This document shows positions 1,547-21,538 of a DNA stretch of 21,641 nt, piece after piece. The notes under the pieces were generated by a model. The model was not told the origin of the DNA. It did no database searches and worked only from the letters and a program-made list of their open reading frames with translations. Each line of letters begins with the position of its first letter. Position 1 is the first letter of the stretch. The position numbers and the translations under genes are program-made. Source of the stretch: Candidatus Hodarchaeota archaeon (GTDB lineage Archaea; Asgardarchaeota; Heimdallarchaeia; Hodarchaeales; YT1-057); contig JAEOTI010000297.1 in NCBI GenBank assembly GCA_016839955.1, forward strand, positions 1-21,641. The letters run 5' to 3'.

Positions 1547-2119
1547 ATGGCAACAGTAAAAACACAGAATTATCCTCAAAATGATACAGAAATGAACTCA
1601 ATTGAACTAGATATAACAGATATTGAAATTTTGCGCATTCTTCAAAAAGACAGCAACCTATCAATTAGAGACATTCAAGCGAAACTTCAAGATCGAAATC
1701 GAAAAATTGGCGAACGTGATCCAGCCTTAGCACTAGAAATCAAGACTTCTTTAGGAACCATTCACAATCGCATTAACAAATTAAGGGATTTAGGAATTAT
1801 TAAGGGGTATACCATTATTCTTGATGCTGAGAAGCTTGGTTATGATCTAACCGTAATGATTCAAATGCAAATTGATGTTAATAAGTTGAACGAAGTTAAT
1901 AAATCCTTTGCTACGATTTCAGAGCTTGTTGCAATGTATAACATCACTGGGGACTTCGATCTCGTTTGTTTCGGTCGTTTTAAATGCCGTCGTCACCTGA
2001 ATCAAGTCTTGCGTGAAAAAATTTTACCTAATCCTTATGTTCGTCGGACAGCAACAAGTATTGCACTAAATATCTTGAAAGAGAATTTCTCAGCATTAAA
2101 CATCTTTGAAGAGAATTAA
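1547..2119 (+). CDS. Lrp/AsnC family transcriptional regulator with an insertion in the HTH
   Basis: A DNA-binding regulator of the feast/famine (Lrp/AsnC) family, 190 residues. The winged-helix part runs from about 20 to 90 (LDITDIEILRIL, then the recognition helix TSLGTIHNRINKLRDLG, then IIKGYTIILDAEKLG, the classic family linker). The RAM ligand-binding domain runs from about 97 to 185 and includes ITGDFDLVCFGRF. Unlike the usual protein of about 150 residues, it carries about 19 extra charged residues (48-66) between the second helix and the recognition helix, plus a 20-residue N-terminal tail. The start is fixed by AAGGAG 9 bases upstream. It is directly followed by an asparagine-synthetase gene, recalling the asnC-asnA pairing of E. 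coli, although the synthetase there is of another family. It may sense an amino acid; which one is unknown. Confidence 0.9.
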   Translation: MATVKTQNYPQNDTEMNSIELDITDIEILRILQKDSNLSIRDIQAKLQDRNRKIGERDPALALEIKTSLGTIHNRINKLRDLGIIKGYTIILDAEKLGYDLTVMIQMQIDVNKLNEVNKSFATISELVAMYNITGDFDLVCFGRFKCRRHLNQVLREKILPNPYVRRTATSIALNILKENFSALNIFEEN

Positions 2120-2153
2120 TAATTCTCTGTCTCATTCTTCTTCATTGAGTTCT

Positions 2154-4268
2154 ATGTGTGGTATTCTTGGAATTTTTGCTTCACCAAATGCCCAAAAGCA
2201 GATTCGGATAGGATTGGACCTTTTAAAACATCGAGGGCATGATGGAATTGGAGTTGCAAGTGAAAATAACCTATGGCATGGTCAATTTACTGACGATATT
2301 CCAAATTGGAATAGTTCTAACTTAGTTGGTCATTGTCTTCATGCTGTAGTAAATCATATTCCACAACCTCTTACTAATCAACAATCTCGCTTAGTGGCTA
2401 ATTGTGAGATTTATAATTGGAGAGATCTTATTCCATTATACAACGATACTCCAAGAAATGATGCAGAACTCCTTCACTTAGTTCTCAATCAAGCTTCAGA
2501 GACCAATCTTGAAGCTAAACTTCAACAGTTGCAGGGAGATTATGCTTTTACCTATTGGCATGATGATACAATATGGATTGCCCGAGATCTAGTAGGGGTG
2601 AAACCCATATGGTATGCTTTTGAAAATGAACAATTCGCTTTTGCTTCTGAGCGGAAAGCACTTTTAGCCATGGGTTATGAAGGTCCTCATGAACTTAATC
2701 CAAGACTGATTCTTTCTTACAATCTCAGAACCCATCAATTAGCATTCCTACCCAGAAATTTCTATTCAATTGATCCTGAACATGAAAAAAATCCAAATAT
2801 ATTGACAACAGAGTTACTAAATCTGTTAATTTCTGCGGTCAAGAAGAGAATTCCTTCAGTGCCTTATGGTTTAATGTTTTCTGGGGGTATTGACTCTGTA
2901 ATTTTAGCTGCGATCTTAAAAAAACTTGGAGAAGAATTTCCTTGTTATGTTGCTGTTGCAGATGAAAAAGCCTCTGATTTATCTTGGAGTTTGAAAGCAG
3001 CAGAATTACTAAATCTCGATTTAAGACCTATAATCGTTTCAATTGATCAAATAGAAGAAAAATTAGGTACGCTTGTTCCTCTTATTGAAGAATCTACAGT
3101 TATGAAAGTTGGAGTTGGTCTCCCCTTCTTTTTTGCTTGTCAAAGTGCAGCAAAGGATGGCATGAAAGTTCTCTTCTCAGGAATGGGTGCAGACGAATTA
3201 TTTGGTGGTTATTTCAGACAAGCAATGGCTGCTGCAGTCAATGAAGATTGTCTTTCAGCGATACGGGGAAATTATGAACGAAATGCTTACCGAGATGATG
3301 TAATCACGATGTATTGGGGACTAGAGCTTAGAGTACCATATTTAGATCCAAAAGTTATTTCCTATTCTCTTAAAATTCCTTCAAAATTCAAAATTCAGGA
3401 AAAACAGAACAAATGGATTCTAAGAGAAGTCGCAAAGAAAATAAATATCTCCCAAGAGCTATCTAATAGACCTAAGAAAGCAGCTCAATATGGAAGCCGG
3501 TTTGATTATTACTTAAAACGATTAGCAAAAAAAGAGGATTGTACAAGGGCAGAATTTCTTCGAAATTTCCTCCCCCAACCTTCAATTAAATTAGGTGCCC
3601 TCTTTAGTACTGGAAAAGACAGCTCTTTTGCCTTTCATGTGATGCGTAAACGTAATTATGATGTTGTTTGCCTGATAACTATACAAAGCGAAAATCCAGA
3701 TTCATATATGTTCCATACACCAACAATTGAACTCTCTCAACTTCAAGCTGAAGCCCTTGGATTGCCAATCTTAATTGGTAAAACAAAAGGAGAAAAAGAA
3801 GAAGAATTAAGGGATTTAGAACGAACGTTGAAGCAAGCCATTGATTTATTTAAAATTCAGGGTGTGATTACTGGTGCTCTATACTCTAACTATCAACGAC
3901 AACGTATTGAAAAAATCTGTGATCGGCTTGGAATAAAGTGTTTTAGTCCTTTATGGCATATAGATCAAGAACAAGAGATGCGACAATTGCTCAGAGAAGG
4001 ATTTGAGATTATTTTTACATCTTACGCAGCTTATGGATTGGATGCATCTTGGCTTGGCGTACCCATTACAGAACAGCATGTGGATCGATTAGTCAAACTA
4101 AATCGTGACTTTGGGATTAATATTGCAGGTGAAGGGGGAGAATTTGAGAGTTTTGTGACATGGATGCCAGGATTTTCTCATCATATTTGTTTTCAAGGAC
4201 TATCAATCTCGAAAACTGGAGAATGGTCAGGTAGGATTAAGTATGAATTTGTTTCATTATGCAAATAA
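2154..4268 (+). CDS. Asparagine synthetase (glutamine-hydrolysing) fused to a Dph6-like ATP-pyrophosphatase
   Basis: A 704-residue three-domain fusion. Residues 1-205 form a class II glutamine amidotransferase: Cys2 is the N-terminal nucleophile, and HRGHDGIG, NCEIYN (83-88) and the ND before AEL (102-103) match the glutamine site. Residues 215-460 form an AsnB synthetase with PP-loop SGGIDS (243-248) and SGMGADELFGGY (342-353). Residues 478-704 match the Dph6/MJ0570 family (diphthine-ammonia ligase) with a second PP-loop STGKDS (485-490) and the family motif GEGGEFESFV (659-668). An in-frame ATG at 2106 would add 16 residues and bury Cys2, so the start must be ATG-TGT at 2154. AsnB makes asparagine from aspartate, glutamine and ATP; Dph6 amidates diphthine on EF-2. 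NCEIYN has Cys where bacterial AsnB has Gly. The gene follows the Lrp regulator by 34 bases and is probably co-transcribed with it. Activity of the third domain is inferred. Confidence 0.88.
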   Translation: MCGILGIFASPNAQKQIRIGLDLLKHRGHDGIGVASENNLWHGQFTDDIPNWNSSNLVGHCLHAVVNHIPQPLTNQQSRLVANCEIYNWRDLIPLYNDTPRNDAELLHLVLNQASETNLEAKLQQLQGDYAFTYWHDDTIWIARDLVGVKPIWYAFENEQFAFASERKALLAMGYEGPHELNPRLILSYNLRTHQLAFLPRNFYSIDPEHEKNPNILTTELLNLLISAVKKRIPSVPYGLMFSGGIDSVILAAILKKLGEEFPCYVAVADEKASDLSWSLKAAELLNLDLRPIIVSIDQIEEKLGTLVPLIEESTVMKVGVGLPFFFACQSAAKDGMKVLFSGMGADELFGGYFRQAMAAAVNEDCLSAIRGNYERNAYRDDVITMYWGLELRVPYLDPKVISYSLKIPSKFKIQEKQNKWILREVAKKINISQELSNRPKKAAQYGSRFDYYLKRLAKKEDCTRAEFLRNFLPQPSIKLGALFSTGKDSSFAFHVMRKRNYDVVCLITIQSENPDSYMFHTPTIELSQLQAEALGLPILIGKTKGEKEEELRDLERTLKQAIDLFKIQGVITGALYSNYQRQRIEKICDRLGIKCFSPLWHIDQEQEMRQLLREGFEIIFTSYAAYGLDASWLGVPITEQHVDRLVKLNRDFGINIAGEGGEFESFVTWMPGFSHHICFQGLSISKTGEWSGRIKYEFVSLCK

Positions 4269-5836: not shown

Positions 5837-5970
5837 TTTTACTATACTCAGATAACCGAAAGATAAATGGCTAGATCCTTTTTTGCTTTAGAATAATTCA
5901 ATATACACAGAAAAAAAGAAAAAAAGTCTAGAAGACAACTGGATATACTTGTTATTATGCGGTGAAGTCA

Positions 5971-6822
5971 ATGGCGCTTAAAATAGGATTTCTAGGACTA
6001 GATGCAGCAGGAAAAACAACATTTTTAGCAGCTTTAGGTAAAACATACGGTTCTATCATCGACGCAAAGCCAACAAAGGGTATTGAACGCTCTGAAAAAA
6101 ATGTTATGGGACAAGCAATAGGTATCTGGGATTATGGAGGACAGACTCAATATCGTGATCGCTATTTGAAGAGCGAAAGAGACCTCGAGGGACTTGATTT
6201 AGTATTCTACCTCCTTGATGTGCAGAATCCGACAAGATTTGATGAAGCAGCAGATTATTTAAGCAATCTCTTAGACAAAATGAAAGGATTTAACCAAGAA
6301 AATCTTATCATTTGTTTCCACAAATATGATCCAGACAGAAGTGAACAACTTAAAGACCAACTGAATAAAGCATGGGAAAAAATGGAATCTATTGCAGAAG
6401 ACGCTTATGCATTTCTCCCGACCTCGATATTCGACGAGAAGCAGATTACAAGAGCTTTTTCCATGGGACTTAGGAAAGTAGCTACTAAGAAAGAAATTGT
6501 CGAAGGAGAGCTTCAAAAAATCATTAAAGATGCTGGTGCAAAAGCTTCAGTGGTTCTTACTACAGATGGTTACGCAATCGCAGCATATGCCGCCGATGAC
6601 AAAGTTGCTGAAGAAATAGAAGGGATTGGAATGTCTTTAGCTATCCTTTGGCAATCATCTGGTCTTAAATTTCAAGAGGTTGTTGGAAAGTTAGACATTG
6701 GTGATTTCAGTTTTGAAACTACATCAGCTGGTGGTAGAGACTATTACATCCTAAATATTGGAGTCAACGACCGACCAACTCTTTTAGGAAAGATACAGAG
6801 TATTCTTGAAACAATTTCCTAA
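5971..6822 (+). CDS. Rag/Gtr-like small GTPase with C-terminal roadblock-type domain
   Basis: A 283-residue two-domain protein. The N-terminal GTPase (1-~175) shows P-loop GLDAAGKT (9-16), switch I Thr35, WDYGGQ (53-58) and guanine-specificity motif HKYD (117-120). It also has TSIFDE (151-156), which matches the TSIWDE I recall in human RagA. HKxD in place of NKxD and the segment YLKSERD after WDYGGQ (RagA: YFTSQRD) are Rag/Gtr features. The WDxGGQ motif is shared by Rag and Arf families. Residues ~177-283 look like a roadblock/LC7 alpha-beta fold (ASVVLTTDGYAIAAYA; DYYILNIGVN), the arrangement found in eukaryotic Rag proteins. A GTG at 5962 is possible, but GGTGA at 5961-5965 is placed exactly for ATG 5971. 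In eukaryotes Rag dimers signal amino-acid status to TORC1; the role here is unknown. It is flanked by a terminator-like hairpin. Confidence 0.88.
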   Translation: MALKIGFLGLDAAGKTTFLAALGKTYGSIIDAKPTKGIERSEKNVMGQAIGIWDYGGQTQYRDRYLKSERDLEGLDLVFYLLDVQNPTRFDEAADYLSNLLDKMKGFNQENLIICFHKYDPDRSEQLKDQLNKAWEKMESIAEDAYAFLPTSIFDEKQITRAFSMGLRKVATKKEIVEGELQKIIKDAGAKASVVLTTDGYAIAAYAADDKVAEEIEGIGMSLAILWQSSGLKFQEVVGKLDIGDFSFETTSAGGRDYYILNIGVNDRPTLLGKIQSILETIS

Positions 6823-9513: not shown

Positions 9514-10254
9514 TCACAGGTCATATTCAAATAAATGATCAATGTCTGTAACATGCGGCTTTTCTTTTTCCAGCATATGTTGACTGCGGGAAGCCTTGGT
9601 TTCAAGATATTTCTTACTATATTTAGTTGCGGGGATTATAAGGGGAACCCTTTCTGTTACATTAATACCATACCGCTTTAGTTGTTCGATTTTTCTTGGA
9701 TTATTTGTCATTAATCGAACACTCAAGATTCCAAGCCTTTGTAGCATTGCGGCAGCAACCTGGTAATCTCGTTCATCATCCTTAAAGCCTAATTCAATAT
9801 TCGCATCAACTGTATCGAAACCTAAATCCTGTAGGGCGTAAGCACGTAATTTATTGAGTAATCCGATTCCACGGCCTTCCTGACGTAAATAAAGAAGGAT
9901 ACCCATCTCTATTGTTCCGATTTGTTTCAAGGCAGTCCTTAATTGGTCTCGACAATCACATCGAAGACTTCCAAGTGCATCCCCAGTTAAACATTCAGAA
10001 TGTATTCGACAGAGAACATTCTCTTTTCCAGAGATATCACCCTTAACAATAGCAGCATGGTCATCACGTCGGTCTTTATTGTTAATAAATCCAATAATTT
10101 TGAATTCCCCAAATCGAGAAGGGAGATTGGCTACAGCAATTATGCGTATACAAATTCCTTTTTCACAATGTTCACAATTTGGGTAGTCAGGGCAATCTAC
10201 ATTCAAAGATTCACTAGATAGGAGTTCCTCGAGGGTGGGAGAAGTTATTGGCAC
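9514..10254 (-). CDS. ribA: GTP cyclohydrolase II with N-terminal cysteine cluster
   Basis: Opens GTP to 2,5-diamino-6-ribosylamino-4-pyrimidinone 5'-phosphate plus formate and pyrophosphate, the first step of riboflavin synthesis. The match to bacterial RibA is strong: zinc ligands Cys88, Cys99 and Cys101 in SECLTGDALGSLRCDC, RQEGRGIGLLNK (124-135), DTVDANIELGF (147-157) and MTNNPRKI (182-189). At 246 residues it exceeds the ~200 of E. coli RibA because of an N-terminal tail that holds four more cysteines (Cys21, 27, 30, 35), a possible second metal site. GTG is the likely start, with GGAG about 10 bases upstream. Many archaea use an unrelated GTP cyclohydrolase (ArfA/type III), so this bacterial-type enzyme is notable. 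The RibB partner lies at 18292-19002. It lies 46 bases behind the thioredoxin-like gene on the same strand. Confidence 0.93.
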   Translation of the reverse strand: MPITSPTLEELLSSESLNVDCPDYPNCEHCEKGICIRIIAVANLPSRFGEFKIIGFINNKDRRDDHAAIVKGDISGKENVLCRIHSECLTGDALGSLRCDCRDQLRTALKQIGTIEMGILLYLRQEGRGIGLLNKLRAYALQDLGFDTVDANIELGFKDDERDYQVAAAMLQRLGILSVRLMTNNPRKIEQLKRYGINVTERVPLIIPATKYSKKYLETKASRSQHMLEKEKPHVTDIDHLFEYDL

Positions 10255-13843: not shown

Positions 13844-14494
13844 GTGAATTCTTTAGAAGAGGAAAAATCAGAAGAATTACCAAAAATAATAGGGAAAATA
13901 GAATCTAATTCTACTAAAGTTATTCTTACAAATAGTGATGCAAGAACATTCTATGATCAAAGTTATTTTGGCACTTTTAATAAGCAAGAAGAATTGGAAC
14001 TTCACCCTGAGGAAGCTTTACTTCTTTTTGAAAGAAAGAGGGTAGAAATTAGTTCCAATGAGCTTGAAAACGGACAAGAACATTTTCTTACAGCGAATGA
14101 GCTTGTAAAACTATTTTCTGAAAATGATATATGGTTCTGGGTTAACTATCAAGTTTATAAGGATCTACGAAATCGAGGATATGTTGTTCGTCCCGGATAT
14201 GGAGAGTTTGCCCCGTACCGATTATATCCTCGTGGAGCAAGACCAGAGGAAGCTGTGTCTAAAATTCTGGTTTATCCCCTTGGAGAAGGAAACCACTTAG
14301 ATTTAGAGCGTCTTGATCAAATTGTTTCAGGAGCTCGATTAAGTAGAAAAGACTTGGTATTAGCAGTAGTGGATCGTTTGGGTGATGTTACGTACTATCG
14401 GGCTGAGGCAATGAAGTTGGAACGAAATCCATACAATTATGAATTTAAGAACGAAGGAGAACCTATTCCTCTAAATATTTCAGAAATTAGTTAA
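13844..14494 (+). CDS. tRNA-splicing endonuclease EndA-like subunit lacking the catalytic His
   Basis: A 216-residue protein of the EndA family, which cuts introns from pre-tRNA at bulge-helix-bulge sites. The N-terminal domain shows SYFGTF and LELHPEEALLLFERKRVEI (51-69). The nuclease domain shows YQVYKDLRNRGYVVRPG (102-118), YRLYPRG (125-131) and LVLAVVDRLGDVTYY (171-185). In known enzymes the catalytic triad is Tyr, His ~10-11 later, and Lys ~30 after that. Here Tyr128 and Lys169 fit, but the His position is Val138 (EEAVSKILV instead of GEGHSEYLV). It could be the structural subunit of a two-gene alpha2beta2 enzyme. The start is GTG with GGAG 10 bases upstream. Its stop shares TTAA with the convergent phosphatase gene. 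Confidence 0.85.
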   Translation: MNSLEEEKSEELPKIIGKIESNSTKVILTNSDARTFYDQSYFGTFNKQEELELHPEEALLLFERKRVEISSNELENGQEHFLTANELVKLFSENDIWFWVNYQVYKDLRNRGYVVRPGYGEFAPYRLYPRGARPEEAVSKILVYPLGEGNHLDLERLDQIVSGARLSRKDLVLAVVDRLGDVTYYRAEAMKLERNPYNYEFKNEGEPIPLNISEIS

Positions 14495-15441
14495 TCACAC
14501 ACACTATGCCCACTCCACATTCTTGGAGGTAGACTAACAACTTTTTTGCTTTGTAGATTATAGATCTCCACTGAACCATCTTCTTTCTCTAAAGCGACTG
14601 TTCCTATTGTATTAGGTCCGGTCTTATAAAAATCGGGATCTGATGTAAGGATATGGACGACTAAATCTTTCCACAGGCTATGAAATCCTCCTCTTGAACC
14701 TTCATGTGAACGGAAAAGTCGACGACGTTCAACAACCCGACGTAAAAAGAATTCTGCTGCTCTACATGAAAAATCTTTAGCGAAACCTCCTCTTGATGAT
14801 GGTTTGAATTCTTCTTCAACTAATGTTTCATCAGGATCATTCCAACGTATTTCACCGAATATTCGCTGTAGTTTCATCGATTGCTTAGTTTGTAAATTCT
14901 CAAAATTATCGTGGGGTTTAGGTAAATGAAGAAAATCTTTAAATGAAGTATCCTGAGGGATTCCTCCGTGCAGAAAAAAGGAAGTAGGTGTCTGTGCAGC
15001 TAAAGGTAGAAAGTTATACAATTCATGACAATAATCTATTGCATCTTGAAAAAAACCCTTGAAATGAGTTTTAAGTTCTGTATAAAACCCATATATTGAA
15101 TTCTGGGTCTCTTCTTCATGGTTTCCACGTAAAGGAATGACATTGTCGGGATATTGTATTGCCATTTTGATAATATATTCTAAAGTTGCTAATTGTTTTG
15201 GTCCCCGGTCTACATAATCCCCTAAAAGAACGATACGCCCACATTGAAAAGCCTCAGCCATTTTAAAGATGAGTTTCAATGCAGTAAGGTCACCATGAAT
15301 ATCTCCAATTACCAATGTTTTACCTGGTTCTTCAAATGTAACTAGATTTGGTTTCTCAGCAAAAATGGATTTGAAATTCGATGCCAATTCCCTCAATTTG
15401 AAAATGTTTGGTTGTTCTAGTTGAGGTTCCTCGAATTTCAC
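14491..15441 (-). CDS. PPP-family Ser/Thr protein phosphatase
   Basis: A metallophosphoesterase of the PP1/PP2A-like PPP family, 316 residues. All core motifs are present: GDIHG (46-50), GDYVDRG (74-80), GNHE (106-109), LHGG (157-160), and RSHE (244-247), which matches the C-terminal metal-binding His. Together they hold two metal ions and the phosphate of phospho-Ser/Thr. It is cytoplasmic; no signal or TM segment is seen. A GTG at 15450 directly abuts the SD (GGAGG, 15451-15455), leaving no spacer, so I take the second GTG at 15441, with 9-base spacing. It lies 24 bases behind the PAC3/4-like gene on the same strand, so the two are probably co-expressed. Protein targets are unknown; ApaH-like hydrolysis of dinucleotides is less likely given the RSHE and IRWNDP motifs. 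Confidence 0.88.
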   Translation of the reverse strand: MKFEEPQLEQPNIFKLRELASNFKSIFAEKPNLVTFEEPGKTLVIGDIHGDLTALKLIFKMAEAFQCGRIVLLGDYVDRGPKQLATLEYIIKMAIQYPDNVIPLRGNHEEETQNSIYGFYTELKTHFKGFFQDAIDYCHELYNFLPLAAQTPTSFFLHGGIPQDTSFKDFLHLPKPHDNFENLQTKQSMKLQRIFGEIRWNDPDETLVEEEFKPSSRGGFAKDFSCRAAEFFLRRVVERRRLFRSHEGSRGGFHSLWKDLVVHILTSDPDFYKTGPNTIGTVALEKEDGSVEIYNLQSKKVVSLPPRMWSGHSVCD

Positions 15442-15465
15442 TTTTAGCACCCTCCAGACAGTGTT

Positions 15466-15795
15466 TCAAATAGAAATCTCTTTAAACGCAGCTTTGAGTA
15501 AATCAAGTTTTTCTATTTCAAAATTTAAATGGCAAGAAACCAAGGCAATTTTGGATGATTTCATTGCAAATCTTTCAGCAATAGCTTCAGCAATGGCAGC
15601 TGAAACCTTACTTCGATCACCGAGTACTGTTGAAGATATAGCTCGAGATTCTTCGGGTAAGGGGGTACCAACTGCAACTGTTCCTAATTTTTCATCGTCT
15701 CCATACATAAAGATCTGAACAGCGTTTTCCAATAAAAGTAAAAAATAATGGAAGGTTTTTTCCCCAACTGAGAACTGTCCTTCTTTCGTTTCCAA
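15466..15795 (-). CDS. Proteasome assembly chaperone PAC3/PAC4-like protein
   Basis: A 109-residue protein. By eye it aligns along its length with human PAC4 (PSMG4) and PAC3 (PSMG3) as I remember them. The key part is STVLGD (55-60), matching STSLLGD in PAC4 and TKVLLG in PAC3, followed by a long Ala-rich helix (AAIAEAIAERFAMKS) and strand KIALVSCHLN (82-91; PAC4 KQVFVSYNLQ). The LGT near 37-39 matches MGTLVS of PAC3. PAC3-PAC4 dimers help to build the 20S alpha ring in eukaryotes. The frame can be extended to a TTG at 15846, but AAAAGGAG upstream of the TTG at 15795 (9-base spacing) supports the shorter form, which also starts where the eukaryotic proteins do. Homology is inferred from pattern and not from a search. 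It is followed by the PPP phosphatase. Confidence 0.6.
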   Translation of the reverse strand: METKEGQFSVGEKTFHYFLLLLENAVQIFMYGDDEKLGTVAVGTPLPEESRAISSTVLGDRSKVSAAIAEAIAERFAMKSSKIALVSCHLNFEIEKLDLLKAAFKEISI

Positions 15796-15916
15796 AAGAA
15801 TTATCTCCTTTTGATATGAATATATTGCGACATTGATGAAACTCAAGCTTAATCATATTAATTATTACTAGCAAGTATTAATCTTTCAGAATGTCTTTCT
15901 TCTCTTTGATGTAAAA

Positions 15917-17349: not shown

Positions 17350-18295
17350 TTTAATTGAACAGTTTCTTGCTAGGGATCGTCGAGCATTTGCTCGGATTAT
17401 AACAAAAGTAGAAGATGGAGATTCTAGTTACGTTCGTCATCTTTTCCCCAAAACAGGTCATAGTCAAATCATTGGAATCACAGGCCCACCTGGGAGTGGA
17501 AAAAGCACTTTAGTTGACAAATTAGCCCTAAAAATCAGGGAACATGGAAAATCAGTTGGAATTATCGCTGTAGACCCAACTAGCCCTTTTACTGGTGGTG
17601 CATTGTTAGGTGATAGAATTAGGATGCAAACTACAGCCCAAGACCCTGGGGTATTTATCCGTTCAATGGGCAGCCGTGGTGCGCTTGGTGGGCTTGCTAG
17701 GGCGACAAACAATGTGATTAAGATTTTTGATGCTTTCGGGTTCGATGTTATTATTGTAGAGACAGTAGGGGCGGGTCAATCAGAAGTTGATATCGTAAAA
17801 ACAGCTCACACTTCCCTTGTTCTTGCTGTACCTGGTCTAGGCGATTCTATTCAAATGATTAAAGCGGGTATATTAGAAATTGCTGATGTTTTTGTTTTAA
17901 ACAAAGCAGATCGTGATGGTATCAATCAACTTGAACTAGAATTGAAATACATGCTAGAGATGACAGATAATGGTCCAAAAATAGATGATTGGACCCCCCC
18001 AATTGTAAGAACGGTAGCAAAAGATGCTATTGGCATTGATGAGCTTTATACAAATATTCAGGAACATTTCATTTTCTTAAAGGAAACAGAAAAACTAGAA
18101 CGATTAATCCAACAACGTACAGAAGATGAAATTATTGAAATTGTAAAAAATAAGTTCGCACAGCACCTCATTACGAAAGCCAAAGAGAGAGGCGATCTTA
18201 AAAAACTTGTAAACTTAGTAATGAAACGAGATCTGGATCCTTATTCAGCTGCGGAGCGATTACTTGATCCCCTAATGCAGAAAGATGATGTTTAA
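17318..18295 (+). CDS. meaB: MeaB/ArgK-type G3E GTPase (methylmalonyl-CoA mutase-associated)
   Basis: A 325-residue GTPase that in known systems loads and protects the adenosylcobalamin cofactor of methylmalonyl-CoA mutase or a related acyl-CoA mutase. Motifs: Walker A GPPGSGKS (56-63), AVDPTSPFTGGALLGDR (84-100), ETVGAGQSE (148-156) and NKAD (195-198). The helical C-terminal arm, used for dimerisation, is complete. The start is uncertain: ATG 17318 overlaps DUF35 by 32 bases, and TTG 17336 would give a protein beginning nearer to where family members start (FNDLIEQFLARDRR). No mutase is in the window. The operon with the thiolase-like and DUF35 genes suggests propionyl-CoA or methylmalonyl-CoA metabolism. 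Its TAA shares TTAA with the stop of ribB. Confidence 0.9.
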   Translation: MRIGLSLIFNDLIEQFLARDRRAFARIITKVEDGDSSYVRHLFPKTGHSQIIGITGPPGSGKSTLVDKLALKIREHGKSVGIIAVDPTSPFTGGALLGDRIRMQTTAQDPGVFIRSMGSRGALGGLARATNNVIKIFDAFGFDVIIVETVGAGQSEVDIVKTAHTSLVLAVPGLGDSIQMIKAGILEIADVFVLNKADRDGINQLELELKYMLEMTDNGPKIDDWTPPIVRTVAKDAIGIDELYTNIQEHFIFLKETEKLERLIQQRTEDEIIEIVKNKFAQHLITKAKERGDLKKLVNLVMKRDLDPYSAAERLLDPLMQKDDV

Positions 18296-19002
18296 ATTTC
18301 CAAAGATTGCCAAGCTTTGATAACGTCTTTTCCTTCAAGAAATATTAGATTATTTTCATTTGCGAATTCTTTTGCTTTTTCTTTTGGTAAAGCACGTTTC
18401 TCAGTCATCATCTCACATCCAACTGCAATTGGTATTAAATCTGCCATGGTAATTAGTGCCACCCCAAGTTCTGTATGACCAAATCGATCCTCTAAAGGGG
18501 TTTGGGAGGAGTTACAAAGAAATACATGTCCTGGTGCTCTAAATTTTTGCCCAAACAACCGTTGAGATTCAATTTGGGATAAGTCTCTAATTTCTCCAGC
18601 GAGTTTTGCAAATTCTGAGATTGTTAAGGCTCGATCATCATCTGTAATACCGGTAAATGTATTCCGATGGTTAATAGTAATCGAAAAAGACGATTTAGTA
18701 TCATAAGGAATGTCATTAGGAATTAATTCTTTTAGTACAGGCCATCTATTGCCTTCCTGAAAGAAAATATCTGTTAAAAAAGGTAAATCAAGTTTTTTTC
18801 TTGTAAGGTAATCTACAATTAGAAATACAAGCCCTCCTCCTTTTGTTCTCATCTCTCGAATATTTTCAGGTGTTACATATTGAGCAGCCATAATAAAGTC
18901 AGTTTCTTCTTCACGTCCATCTGCATCATAAACAAGAACAAATTTTCCTTCACGTAAAGCTGATAGAGCTTTTTGAAGGGTATTTCCGGTTGTAGTTGTC
19001 AT
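18292..19002 (-). CDS. ribB: 3,4-dihydroxy-2-butanone 4-phosphate synthase
   Basis: Converts ribulose 5-phosphate to 3,4-dihydroxy-2-butanone 4-phosphate and formate, giving the four-carbon unit of riboflavin. It has 236 residues. The acidic metal/substrate loop YDADGREEETD (25-35), HRNTFTGITDDDRA (112-125), PGHVF (157-161) and GHTEL (175-179) are the RibB signatures. The sequence from GREEETDFIMAAQYVTPE onward has the archaeal form. It is monofunctional, with no RibA domain attached; RibA is coded separately at 9514-10254. The gene lies 59 bases behind the secreted paralogues on the same strand; a weak AGAGAAG precedes the ATG. Confidence 0.92.
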   Translation of the reverse strand: MTTTTGNTLQKALSALREGKFVLVYDADGREEETDFIMAAQYVTPENIREMRTKGGGLVFLIVDYLTRKKLDLPFLTDIFFQEGNRWPVLKELIPNDIPYDTKSSFSITINHRNTFTGITDDDRALTISEFAKLAGEIRDLSQIESQRLFGQKFRAPGHVFLCNSSQTPLEDRFGHTELGVALITMADLIPIAVGCEMMTEKRALPKEKAKEFANENNLIFLEGKDVIKAWQSLEI

Positions 19003-19061: not shown

Positions 19062-20288
19062 TTAATTTCTATATTTTCGTTTACTAATCAAGACAAGAAT
19101 TCCTGATATCACAAAGAATAGTTCATATTCGGAAATCTTTGGAATAGATTTTTCGTCATCTAAGGAGGTTAATTCCACCATGTAATTGGTCTTGGAATTC
19201 CAAACATTGAAATTTTCATTTGTTGTCCATACAAATGTATTAGTTCCATCAAATAAAATAAATTTTAATTTCCCAGAAGCAGTATTAGGAAAAAATCGAG
19301 TGTCCCATAAAATTATTATTTTTTGGCCTACTAAATCAGTTACAAGCATTTGATGAACGATTGAGTAGTTATTATTGGGTATTTCACACGGGATATAGAG
19401 AATATTGAGAATGAGAGGATGATCATCTCTTACATCATTGTTATTTTCTAAATTTGGATCGTTTATAATGAACTCTAATCCTTGTTGGCAGGCTAAAGAT
19501 CCAGAAATTTCCTGAAAAAAGAGTGTACTTGGAATATTCTTGTGATTATTAATATTTACACTAGCAGAATGAGAATAAATATTACCTAATGAATCTTTAG
19601 CGGTAGTAAGAAGCCACCATTCTCCATCTTCAATTGAATAGGTATCTAAATCAACTGTGGCTCCTTTTACATGAGCTTCATGTACAGCAGGAAATTTTGC
19701 ACTAATCTTAATCGTTCCGTTATTTTGTTCGCCTGCATAGTTATAGATGCGGATCCAATAGTAACCATCTGATGTGATAATTCCACTCCAAACTTCTGGA
19801 CTTCCACCAGCAGTAACCATCGCCCAATCTGTGTAATCATACCAATAGCTATAACCATAACATCCACAAAAAAAGCCAAAATCCATCATATCCTCTTCTG
19901 GCTTATTATTCCACGAACATTCAAGAGAAAGCGTTGTGTTTTCTGGAAAATACCAACCTGGAGACTCAGGAATGAGTTGATCTCCGTAATCACCTGAATA
20001 TTCATATTGATATTCCTTAAAGATCATTTTTTCGTGAACACTAAGAGAAGCTTCAATTATTTGAACATCAGGAAATTCTTTAGCGTTATTTGGTGTCCAA
20101 GTTAATGAAAGAATAGATGAGCCATATTCACTTTGTAACCCAACACACGATCCATTAGTAGGAAACTCTTGTGCTGAAAGTTCTGAGTACAGCACCAAAT
20201 TTGAGGTAGCTGGAGTTGTAGTATTTACACTGAGTATTAAAGGAAAAATAAAACCAGAAACTACGAACAAAAGCAGAACGGATTTCAT
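19062..20288 (-). CDS. Secreted, C-terminally anchored beta-sandwich protein, paralogue 2
   Basis: A 408-residue protein with a signal peptide (residues 1-~22, basic start then LLLFVVSGFIFPLIL) and a C-terminal membrane segment (about 387-402) ending in KRKYRN. The long middle part therefore faces outside. The region at about 140-205 (TAGGSPEVWSG, YYWIRIYNYAGEQNNGTIKISA) resembles a PPC-type (bacterial pre-peptidase C-terminal) beta domain. The region at about 210-255 (DGEWWLLTTAKDSLGNIYSHSASVNI) resembles an Ig-like surface domain. Several cysteines (NGSC, LECSW, FCGCYG) may form disulfides. No enzyme motif was seen. It lies 32 bases behind its close paralogue and shares its layout throughout, so it arose by tandem duplication. 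AAGGGGA precedes the ATG. A surface or cell-envelope role is inferred. Confidence 0.8.
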   Translation of the reverse strand: MKSVLLLFVVSGFIFPLILSVNTTTPATSNLVLYSELSAQEFPTNGSCVGLQSEYGSSILSLTWTPNNAKEFPDVQIIEASLSVHEKMIFKEYQYEYSGDYGDQLIPESPGWYFPENTTLSLECSWNNKPEEDMMDFGFFCGCYGYSYWYDYTDWAMVTAGGSPEVWSGIITSDGYYWIRIYNYAGEQNNGTIKISAKFPAVHEAHVKGATVDLDTYSIEDGEWWLLTTAKDSLGNIYSHSASVNINNHKNIPSTLFFQEISGSLACQQGLEFIINDPNLENNNDVRDDHPLILNILYIPCEIPNNNYSIVHQMLVTDLVGQKIIILWDTRFFPNTASGKLKFILFDGTNTFVWTTNENFNVWNSKTNYMVELTSLDDEKSIPKISEYELFFVISGILVLISKRKYRN

Positions 20289-20320: not shown

Positions 20321-21538
20321 TTAATTCCTGGATTTCTTCTTGCTAATAACAAATAGACTACAAATAATGAGGAGAAAAACATCAATTCCAATGATATTTG
20401 ATACAGATTTTTCCCCACTTTTGAAATTCTCTGGATTCCAAACCTCAAAATATTCATTTGATGTTAATTCATTTGTCCGATTTCCATCAAATAATATAAA
20501 TTTCAGCGTCCCATAGGCAGTATTTGGATATTGGCGAGTATCCCATAATATAGTAATTTCTTCTCCAACTAAATCGGTTACAGCCATTTTAGATACGACT
20601 GTAAATACCTTCTCAGGTAATTCATATCGTACATATAAAACATCGAGAAATAAAGGATGATCATCTCTTTTATCTTCATTTTTTTCGAGATTTACATCTT
20701 TGATTGTCAAATTTATCTTTTCTTGGCCTGACATAGTCCTAGACAATTCATGAATAGTAAGGAAGGAAGGAGTGTTTTCATGATTGATTATGTTAACAAA
20801 AACGCTATGTGAATACACGTTGCCCAATGAATCTTTGGCAGTAGTAGTGAGCCACCACTCTCCATCATCAATTGGGAAAGTATCTATTTCAACAGTTGCA
20901 CTTTTTACATGAGTTTCGAGAACAATAGTATGTTGTTTCGCAAAAACTTTTATTGTTCCACTATTTGGTTTTCCTGCAAAATTAAGAATCCGAAGCCAAT
21001 AGCATCCAGCAGCCGGTAATGTGCCTTCCCATTTTTCAGGGCTTCCACCTGCGGTAGCTAGACTCCAATCTGTGACTTCATCATCACAATAACAACTCGT
21101 AATTACTCCATAAGACCCACAATAAAGGCCAAAATCCATCATGTCTTTTTCTGAGTCATTTTCCCAAGAACATTCTAATGAAAGAAAGGTATTTTCTTGA
21201 AATTCCCATCCAGGAGATTCAGGGACAAACTGGTTACCAAAATCATTAGTAAAAACATACCGATATTCTTTTTGAAATGGCATTTCGTAAATACTAATAG
21301 AACTCTCAATAATTTCAATATCAGGATATTCAATTCCGTCTGGAGCCCATGTTAATGAAAGAACGGATGATCCATATTCACTTTGTAATCCAATACACGA
21401 TCCATTAGTCGGAAACTCTTTTGAAGGAGAATTTGTGTTTAATCCCAGATTTGAAGTAGCTGAAACAATGAAATTACTATTGAATACAAAAGGAAACAAC
21501 AAACCAAATACTACTAATAATAATAAATTGGATTTCAT
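20321..21538 (-). CDS. Secreted, C-terminally anchored beta-sandwich protein, paralogue 1
   Basis: A 405-residue protein with the same plan as the next gene: signal peptide (1-~22, LLLLVVFGLLFPFVF), a shared N-terminal segment EFPTNGSC then GLQSEYGSS, a PPC-like region (TAGGSPEKWEG, CYWLRILNFAGKPNSGTIKV), an Ig-like region (DGEWWLTTTAKDSLGNVYSHSV), and a C-terminal membrane helix (about 383-399) ending in KKKSRN. The most divergent part is the cysteine-containing loop at about 135-150, where this copy has YCGSYGVITSCYCDDE and the other has FCGCYGYSYWYDY. GGAGG lies 7 bases before the ATG and a TATA box about 55 bases upstream, so this is the first gene of the pair. Function is unknown; I infer surface exposure only. 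Confidence 0.8.
   Translation of the reverse strand: MKSNLLLLVVFGLLFPFVFNSNFIVSATSNLGLNTNSPSKEFPTNGSCIGLQSEYGSSVLSLTWAPDGIEYPDIEIIESSISIYEMPFQKEYRYVFTNDFGNQFVPESPGWEFQENTFLSLECSWENDSEKDMMDFGLYCGSYGVITSCYCDDEVTDWSLATAGGSPEKWEGTLPAAGCYWLRILNFAGKPNSGTIKVFAKQHTIVLETHVKSATVEIDTFPIDDGEWWLTTTAKDSLGNVYSHSVFVNIINHENTPSFLTIHELSRTMSGQEKINLTIKDVNLEKNEDKRDDHPLFLDVLYVRYELPEKVFTVVSKMAVTDLVGEEITILWDTRQYPNTAYGTLKFILFDGNRTNELTSNEYFEVWNPENFKSGEKSVSNIIGIDVFLLIICSLFVISKKKSRN

Follow-up and report, generated by a model that had tools for sequence, protein, structure and literature searches.

A 109-residue protein, encoded on the minus strand at positions 15466..15795 of a 21,641-nucleotide contig (JAEOTI010000297.1, assembly GCA_016839955.1) from a Candidatus Hodarchaeota archaeon, the whole of which is here called the window, is probably a proteasome assembly chaperone of the PAC3/PAC4 type in an Asgard-type archaeon, and by sequence it lies nearest to PAC4. 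The initial annotation, made from the DNA letters alone, had proposed a PAC3/PAC4-like chaperone at this locus, and both a profile match and a predicted fold now support that proposal, with the balance shifted towards PAC4.

Profile searches place the protein on the PAC4 side. Pfam PAC4 (PF16093) is its top family, with E = 2e-6 and 28.1 bits over the full profile, and the protein database's precomputed annotation likewise puts PF16093.11 on it; placement in an unrelated family, the outcome on which the initial annotation had staked its proposal, did not appear. PAC4 is the best family for all 18 family members scanned (E = 2e-6 to 9.3e-3), and is so in each of the 12 scanned among P0007 to P0125, the relatives described below. 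A profile built from 69 members and run against the PDB retrieved human PAC4 at E = 1.8e-4 and 1.9e-4, the next match standing at 0.92, while a search with the single sequence ranked PAC4 (0.072 and 0.13) below a chance match (0.019). The human PAC4 segment scored 23.9 bits against the 69-member family profile and ~14 bits against each sub-group alone; none of 1000 shuffled versions of this segment reached the real score against the family profiles (850 of the 1000 gave a reported score). Nor did any of 10 shuffled or reversed versions of the window protein match PAC4, with two matching other families weakly (E = 0.02 and 0.038), and on these two controls a chance match was ruled out. Judged by its sequence, the protein belongs to the PAC4 neighbourhood.

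The initial annotation had also seen features of both PAC3 and PAC4 in the protein, which holds for the fold but not for the sequence statistics: the signal is that of PAC4, and although the library includes Pfam's PAC3 model (PF10178), none of the 18 proteins matched it at E ≤ 10, so that PAC3 was rejected as the nearest family by sequence. At the same threshold the window protein gives only PAC4 and PAC_bac (PF21758), with no match to a PAC1/2-type Pfam family. PAC_bac matches weakly in 5 of the 18 (best 4.9e-5, for P0005). NCBIfam returned only acyl-carrier-protein matches, in two of eight proteins (E = 0.038 and 0.13), and PHROGs one weak match each for two proteins. In 14 control genomes, which include no positive control for PAC4, the PAC4 model found nothing at E ≤ 0.01 and matched weakly in seven at E ≤ 10, bacteria included, an indication of the noise to be expected. 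One of these genomes, that of Methanosarcina acetivorans, carries a PAC_bac match over the cut-off, and a second PAC-fold family of another kind may thus already be known in archaea.

The protein has a small circle of close relatives and a much larger remote one. When the sequence alone was searched against 5.8 billion proteins, two relatives came up at E ≤ 0.01 apart from the window protein itself: P0002, which comes from a Candidatus Hodarchaeota metagenome-assembled genome (MAG), and P0003. A profile of these three sequences added P0004 to P0008, of which P0004 comes from a Candidatus Heimdallarchaeota MAG and P0007 (E = 3.3e-5) and P0008 (E = 5.6e-5) are remote. When the latter two were combined with the window protein into a profile, 420 matches appeared at E ≤ 10; the best 120 of these, all at E ≤ 6.2e-37 and including the three query sequences, entered the retrieved set of 125 proteins to which the counts below refer. 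Six sequences form a close clade, in which the five relatives are 61–66% identical to the window protein; identity falls to 29–38% in the larger group outside it. Both named members of the close clade come from Asgard MAGs, hence our term Asgard-type for it. Organism names stand on only three of the 125 (the Hodarchaeota and Heimdallarchaeota MAGs and P0076, from a Methylomirabilota bacterium MAG, the only one named among the 119 from P0007 to P0125), and a functional name on none. Scans of genome contigs (including one with the GTPase at 5962-6822, see below) and of viral contigs gave no relative, and tblastn gave no match in plasmids with P0079 and none in phages with P0001.

The predicted structure points in the same direction. 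Modelled as a single chain, the protein is predicted to fold as PAC3/PAC4, with five strands, a helix, a strand and a helix in an arrangement that matches the solved structures of both; a fold unlike theirs, the other outcome that had been named as damaging, did not appear. LpdD of Lactobacillus plantarum also matches the predicted fold, ranking below 8qyj_M both by Foldseek and by Z score. A first AlphaFold2 model from three sequences was poor (predicted local distance difference test score 57.6), yet PAC3/PAC4 and LpdD already headed its list of matches. The motifs singled out in the initial annotation are in place along this fold: LGT at residues 37-39; SSTVLGD at 54-60 (15616..15636, minus strand), which aligns with 64-STSLLGD-70 of human PAC4; an Ala-rich helix at 64-80 (15556..15606, minus strand), which alignment and predicted structure identify as helix α1; a hydrophobic strand at 83-89; and a terminal helix at 96-106, with LLKAAFKEI at 99-107.

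Invariant positions in a 69-sequence alignment include Asn24, Ala25, Gly38, Thr39, Pro45, Ser54, Ser55, Gly59, Glu74 and Ser87. A docking model of human PAC4 gives its contacts as Arg48 (with α5) and Ile61, Asp70, Gln81 and Arg85 (with α4) (PMC6539346), and we mapped these positions through a pairwise alignment of the window protein with human PAC4. The Asp70 position corresponds to Asp60, which is Asp in all six close sequences, and the Gln81 position to Glu74, which is invariant in 125 of 125. By this alignment, two of the five contact positions (Asp70, and Gln81 as Glu) look conserved in the close clade.

The stretch at 15466..15795 is a genuine protein-coding gene, and the 109-residue open reading frame (ORF) given in the initial annotation is present as claimed, with start, ribosome-binding site and codon pattern in agreement. 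Translation from the TTG at 15795 is preceded, 9 bases ahead, by a Shine-Dalgarno-like AGGAG visible in the sequence (15805..15809, minus strand), and each of the five close relatives, P0002 to P0006, shares this start column when aligned with the window protein. G+C per codon position is 48/36/25%, as in the five neighbouring genes computed. The same frame opens further up at a TTG at 15846, giving 126 residues (E = 2.7e-6 against Pfam PAC4), but this version was rejected: no ribosome-binding AGGAG-like motif lies in the sequence upstream of that TTG, and the 51-base extension has a G+C pattern of 29/18/35%, unlike the gene and its five neighbours. An 85-residue ORF overlaps the gene on the opposite strand; it lacks any Pfam match at E ≤ 0.1 and was rejected as the true gene on that ground.

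How such a protein would act is suggested by its eukaryotic relatives. In human assembly intermediates, PAC3/PAC4 sits on the side of the α-ring where late β subunits bind, with α5 at the PAC3/PAC4 interface, so that the ring is steadied and late β subunits are kept out, according to the part of PMC11327110 available to us. For the window protein, the mechanism that we consider most likely is a homodimer steering α-ring assembly, a homodimer being proposed because PAC3, PAC4 and LpdD can each form one. Two copies would pair sheet to sheet, as in those proteins, and the dimer would bind the β-facing side of α subunits through helix α1 and the SSTVLGD loop, bridge adjacent α subunits during ring formation and hold off premature β subunits, before being displaced as the β subunits enter. 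Where eukaryotes use a duplicated pair whose positions on a ring of seven subunits are fixed, a single homodimer would suit a ring of identical α subunits or of few kinds.

A number of observations weigh against a proteasomal PAC3/PAC4-type chaperone. The PAC4 score of the window protein lies below the Pfam cut-off of 31 (release.10), as do those of the other 17 proteins scanned; the precomputed PF16093 label is carried by only 6 of the 125 retrieved proteins; and PAC4 was not among the PDB matches of a profile built from the three closest sequences alone. Three of the five human PAC4 contacts are altered (Arg48 to Gly38, Ile61 to Arg51 and Arg85 to Met78), and the 119 sequences outside the close clade carry Gly, Ala or Ser at the Asp70 position. 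None of the 25 other window frames scanned matched a proteasome subunit, and LpdD demonstrates that the same fold can serve another task.

The alternative that best withstands the evidence, although we consider it unlikely, is a PAC-fold protein with some other partner, for example the metallophosphatase encoded next to it. This metallophosphoesterase gene (14491..15450, minus strand) follows the PAC4-like gene after 15 bases, in the same orientation, its motifs resemble those of PPP phosphatases by eye, and the two genes probably share one transcript. A GGAGG abuts its listed GTG, so translation may in fact begin a few codons further on. A precedent exists in PbaA, a PAC1/2 homologue that forms a complex with PF0014 in an architecture suggesting a proteasome-independent function, as described in the accessible part of PMC6992696; homology to PAC proteins therefore does not guarantee a function in the proteasome. 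The altered contact positions also fit another partner, whereas the top sequence match to PAC4 specifically, and the invariance of Glu74 at a PAC4 contact position, speak for the proteasome.

Less probable still is a chaperone resembling LpdD, which would bind the reduced flavin cofactor prFMNH2 and load it into an enzyme. LpdD is a homodimer that binds reduced prenylated flavin and has a metal site formed by His35, His61 and Asp63; the two histidines are strictly conserved, H35A does not bind prFMNH2 in vitro, and both histidine variants keep residual activity in cells (PMC10865409, from the part available to us). The shared fold is the attraction of this explanation, but the His35/His61 site has no counterpart in the family, where His occurs in at most 6 of the 125 sequences at any column, and a family that lacks a His-conserved column argues against LpdD function. 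In addition, LpdD did not appear in sequence searches of the PDB at E values up to 10, it ranks under 8qyj_M in the structural comparison, and no UbiD or UbiX match was found in the 25 other window frames scanned. An LpdD-type cofactor chaperone was rejected as first choice on the missing conserved histidines. A chance resemblance or a non-coding ORF, to which the modest single-sequence score, the Ala-rich helix and the antisense ORF might point, is extremely improbable in view of the shuffle controls, the family profile, the conserved relatives, the fold, the ribosome-binding site and the antisense ORF's want of a Pfam match.

Upstream of the PAC4-like gene lies a divergent thiolase gene, and the sole proteasome-named match among the 25 other frames scanned is RPN7, under the cut-off and inside a TPR protein. 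A GTPase resembling Arf and Gtr1-RagA (5962-6822, plus strand), of a type characteristic of Asgard genomes, has ~80 more C-terminal residues past its Pfam matches. At 2106-4268 (plus strand), a single 720-residue frame combines a glutamine-amidotransferase/asparagine-synthase portion with a diphthamide synthase (Diphthami_syn_2) portion, with the methionine of MCGILG at 2154 as the probable true start, and this fusion could supply ammonia for diphthamide synthesis. Genes for GTP cyclohydrolase II (RibA-type) and DHBP synthase are found at 9514-10254 and 18292-19002 (minus strand), the RibA-type first step being unusual in archaea. Finally, a tandem pair at 19062-20288 and 20321-21538 (minus strand) encodes proteins of 408 and 405 residues that are 54% identical to each other, have no Pfam match at E ≤ 0.1, and show by eye a signal-peptide-like start and a hydrophobic end.

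Proteasome assembly chaperones are presented as serving a need that arose in eukaryotes with their seven different α subunits. If the lineage nearest to eukaryotes has a protein of the PAC4 type, PAC3/PAC4 would have originated before eukaryotes did, and one would have to ask what such a protein does for a simpler ring, a question that becomes testable with small recombinant proteins. The initial annotation's view that one ancestral homodimer split into the eukaryotic pair is plausible. We put forward tentatively, as an idea that is somewhat more open to doubt than the assignment itself, that the eukaryotic PAC3-PAC4 pair might descend from a single homodimeric chaperone of the Asgard host lineage, which would have aided α-ring assembly before seven kinds of α subunit arose, and of which the Hodarchaeota and Heimdallarchaeota proteins would be the living form. 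The archaeal proteasome-chaperone homologues described in the literature consulted here are of the PAC1/2 type, according to the portion of PMC3605417 available to us. Among the matches listed from titles and abstract starts of the open-licence literature (a body that leaves subscription papers and most preprints outside), none reports an archaeal PAC3/PAC4 homologue, and the available parts of Asgard papers and of a 2026 review of proteasome assembly make no mention of one. The PAC4 family itself is known and detectable by automated annotation; its Asgard member appears to be undescribed.

Among known systems, the closest counterpart is PAC4/PSMG4 (yeast Pba4, PF16093), and the window protein is 21–24% identical to 8qyj_M. 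It differs from eukaryotic PAC4 in coming from a prokaryote, in scoring under the Pfam cut-off, in having no known PAC3 partner and in the three changed contact positions. Identity to PAC3/PSMG3 (yeast Pba3, PF10178) is lower, at 11–13%, in keeping with the lack of a profile match in the 18 scanned. With LpdD it has the fold in common but neither the metal-binding histidines, which are absent in the family, nor a sequence match. PbaA and PbaB, the PAC1/PAC2 homologues, are a homopentamer and a homotetramer, respectively (PMC6992696, in the part accessible to us), and differ from the window protein in family, as it has no Pfam match to the PAC1/2 type; like them, it would be an archaeal relative of a eukaryotic proteasome assembly factor.
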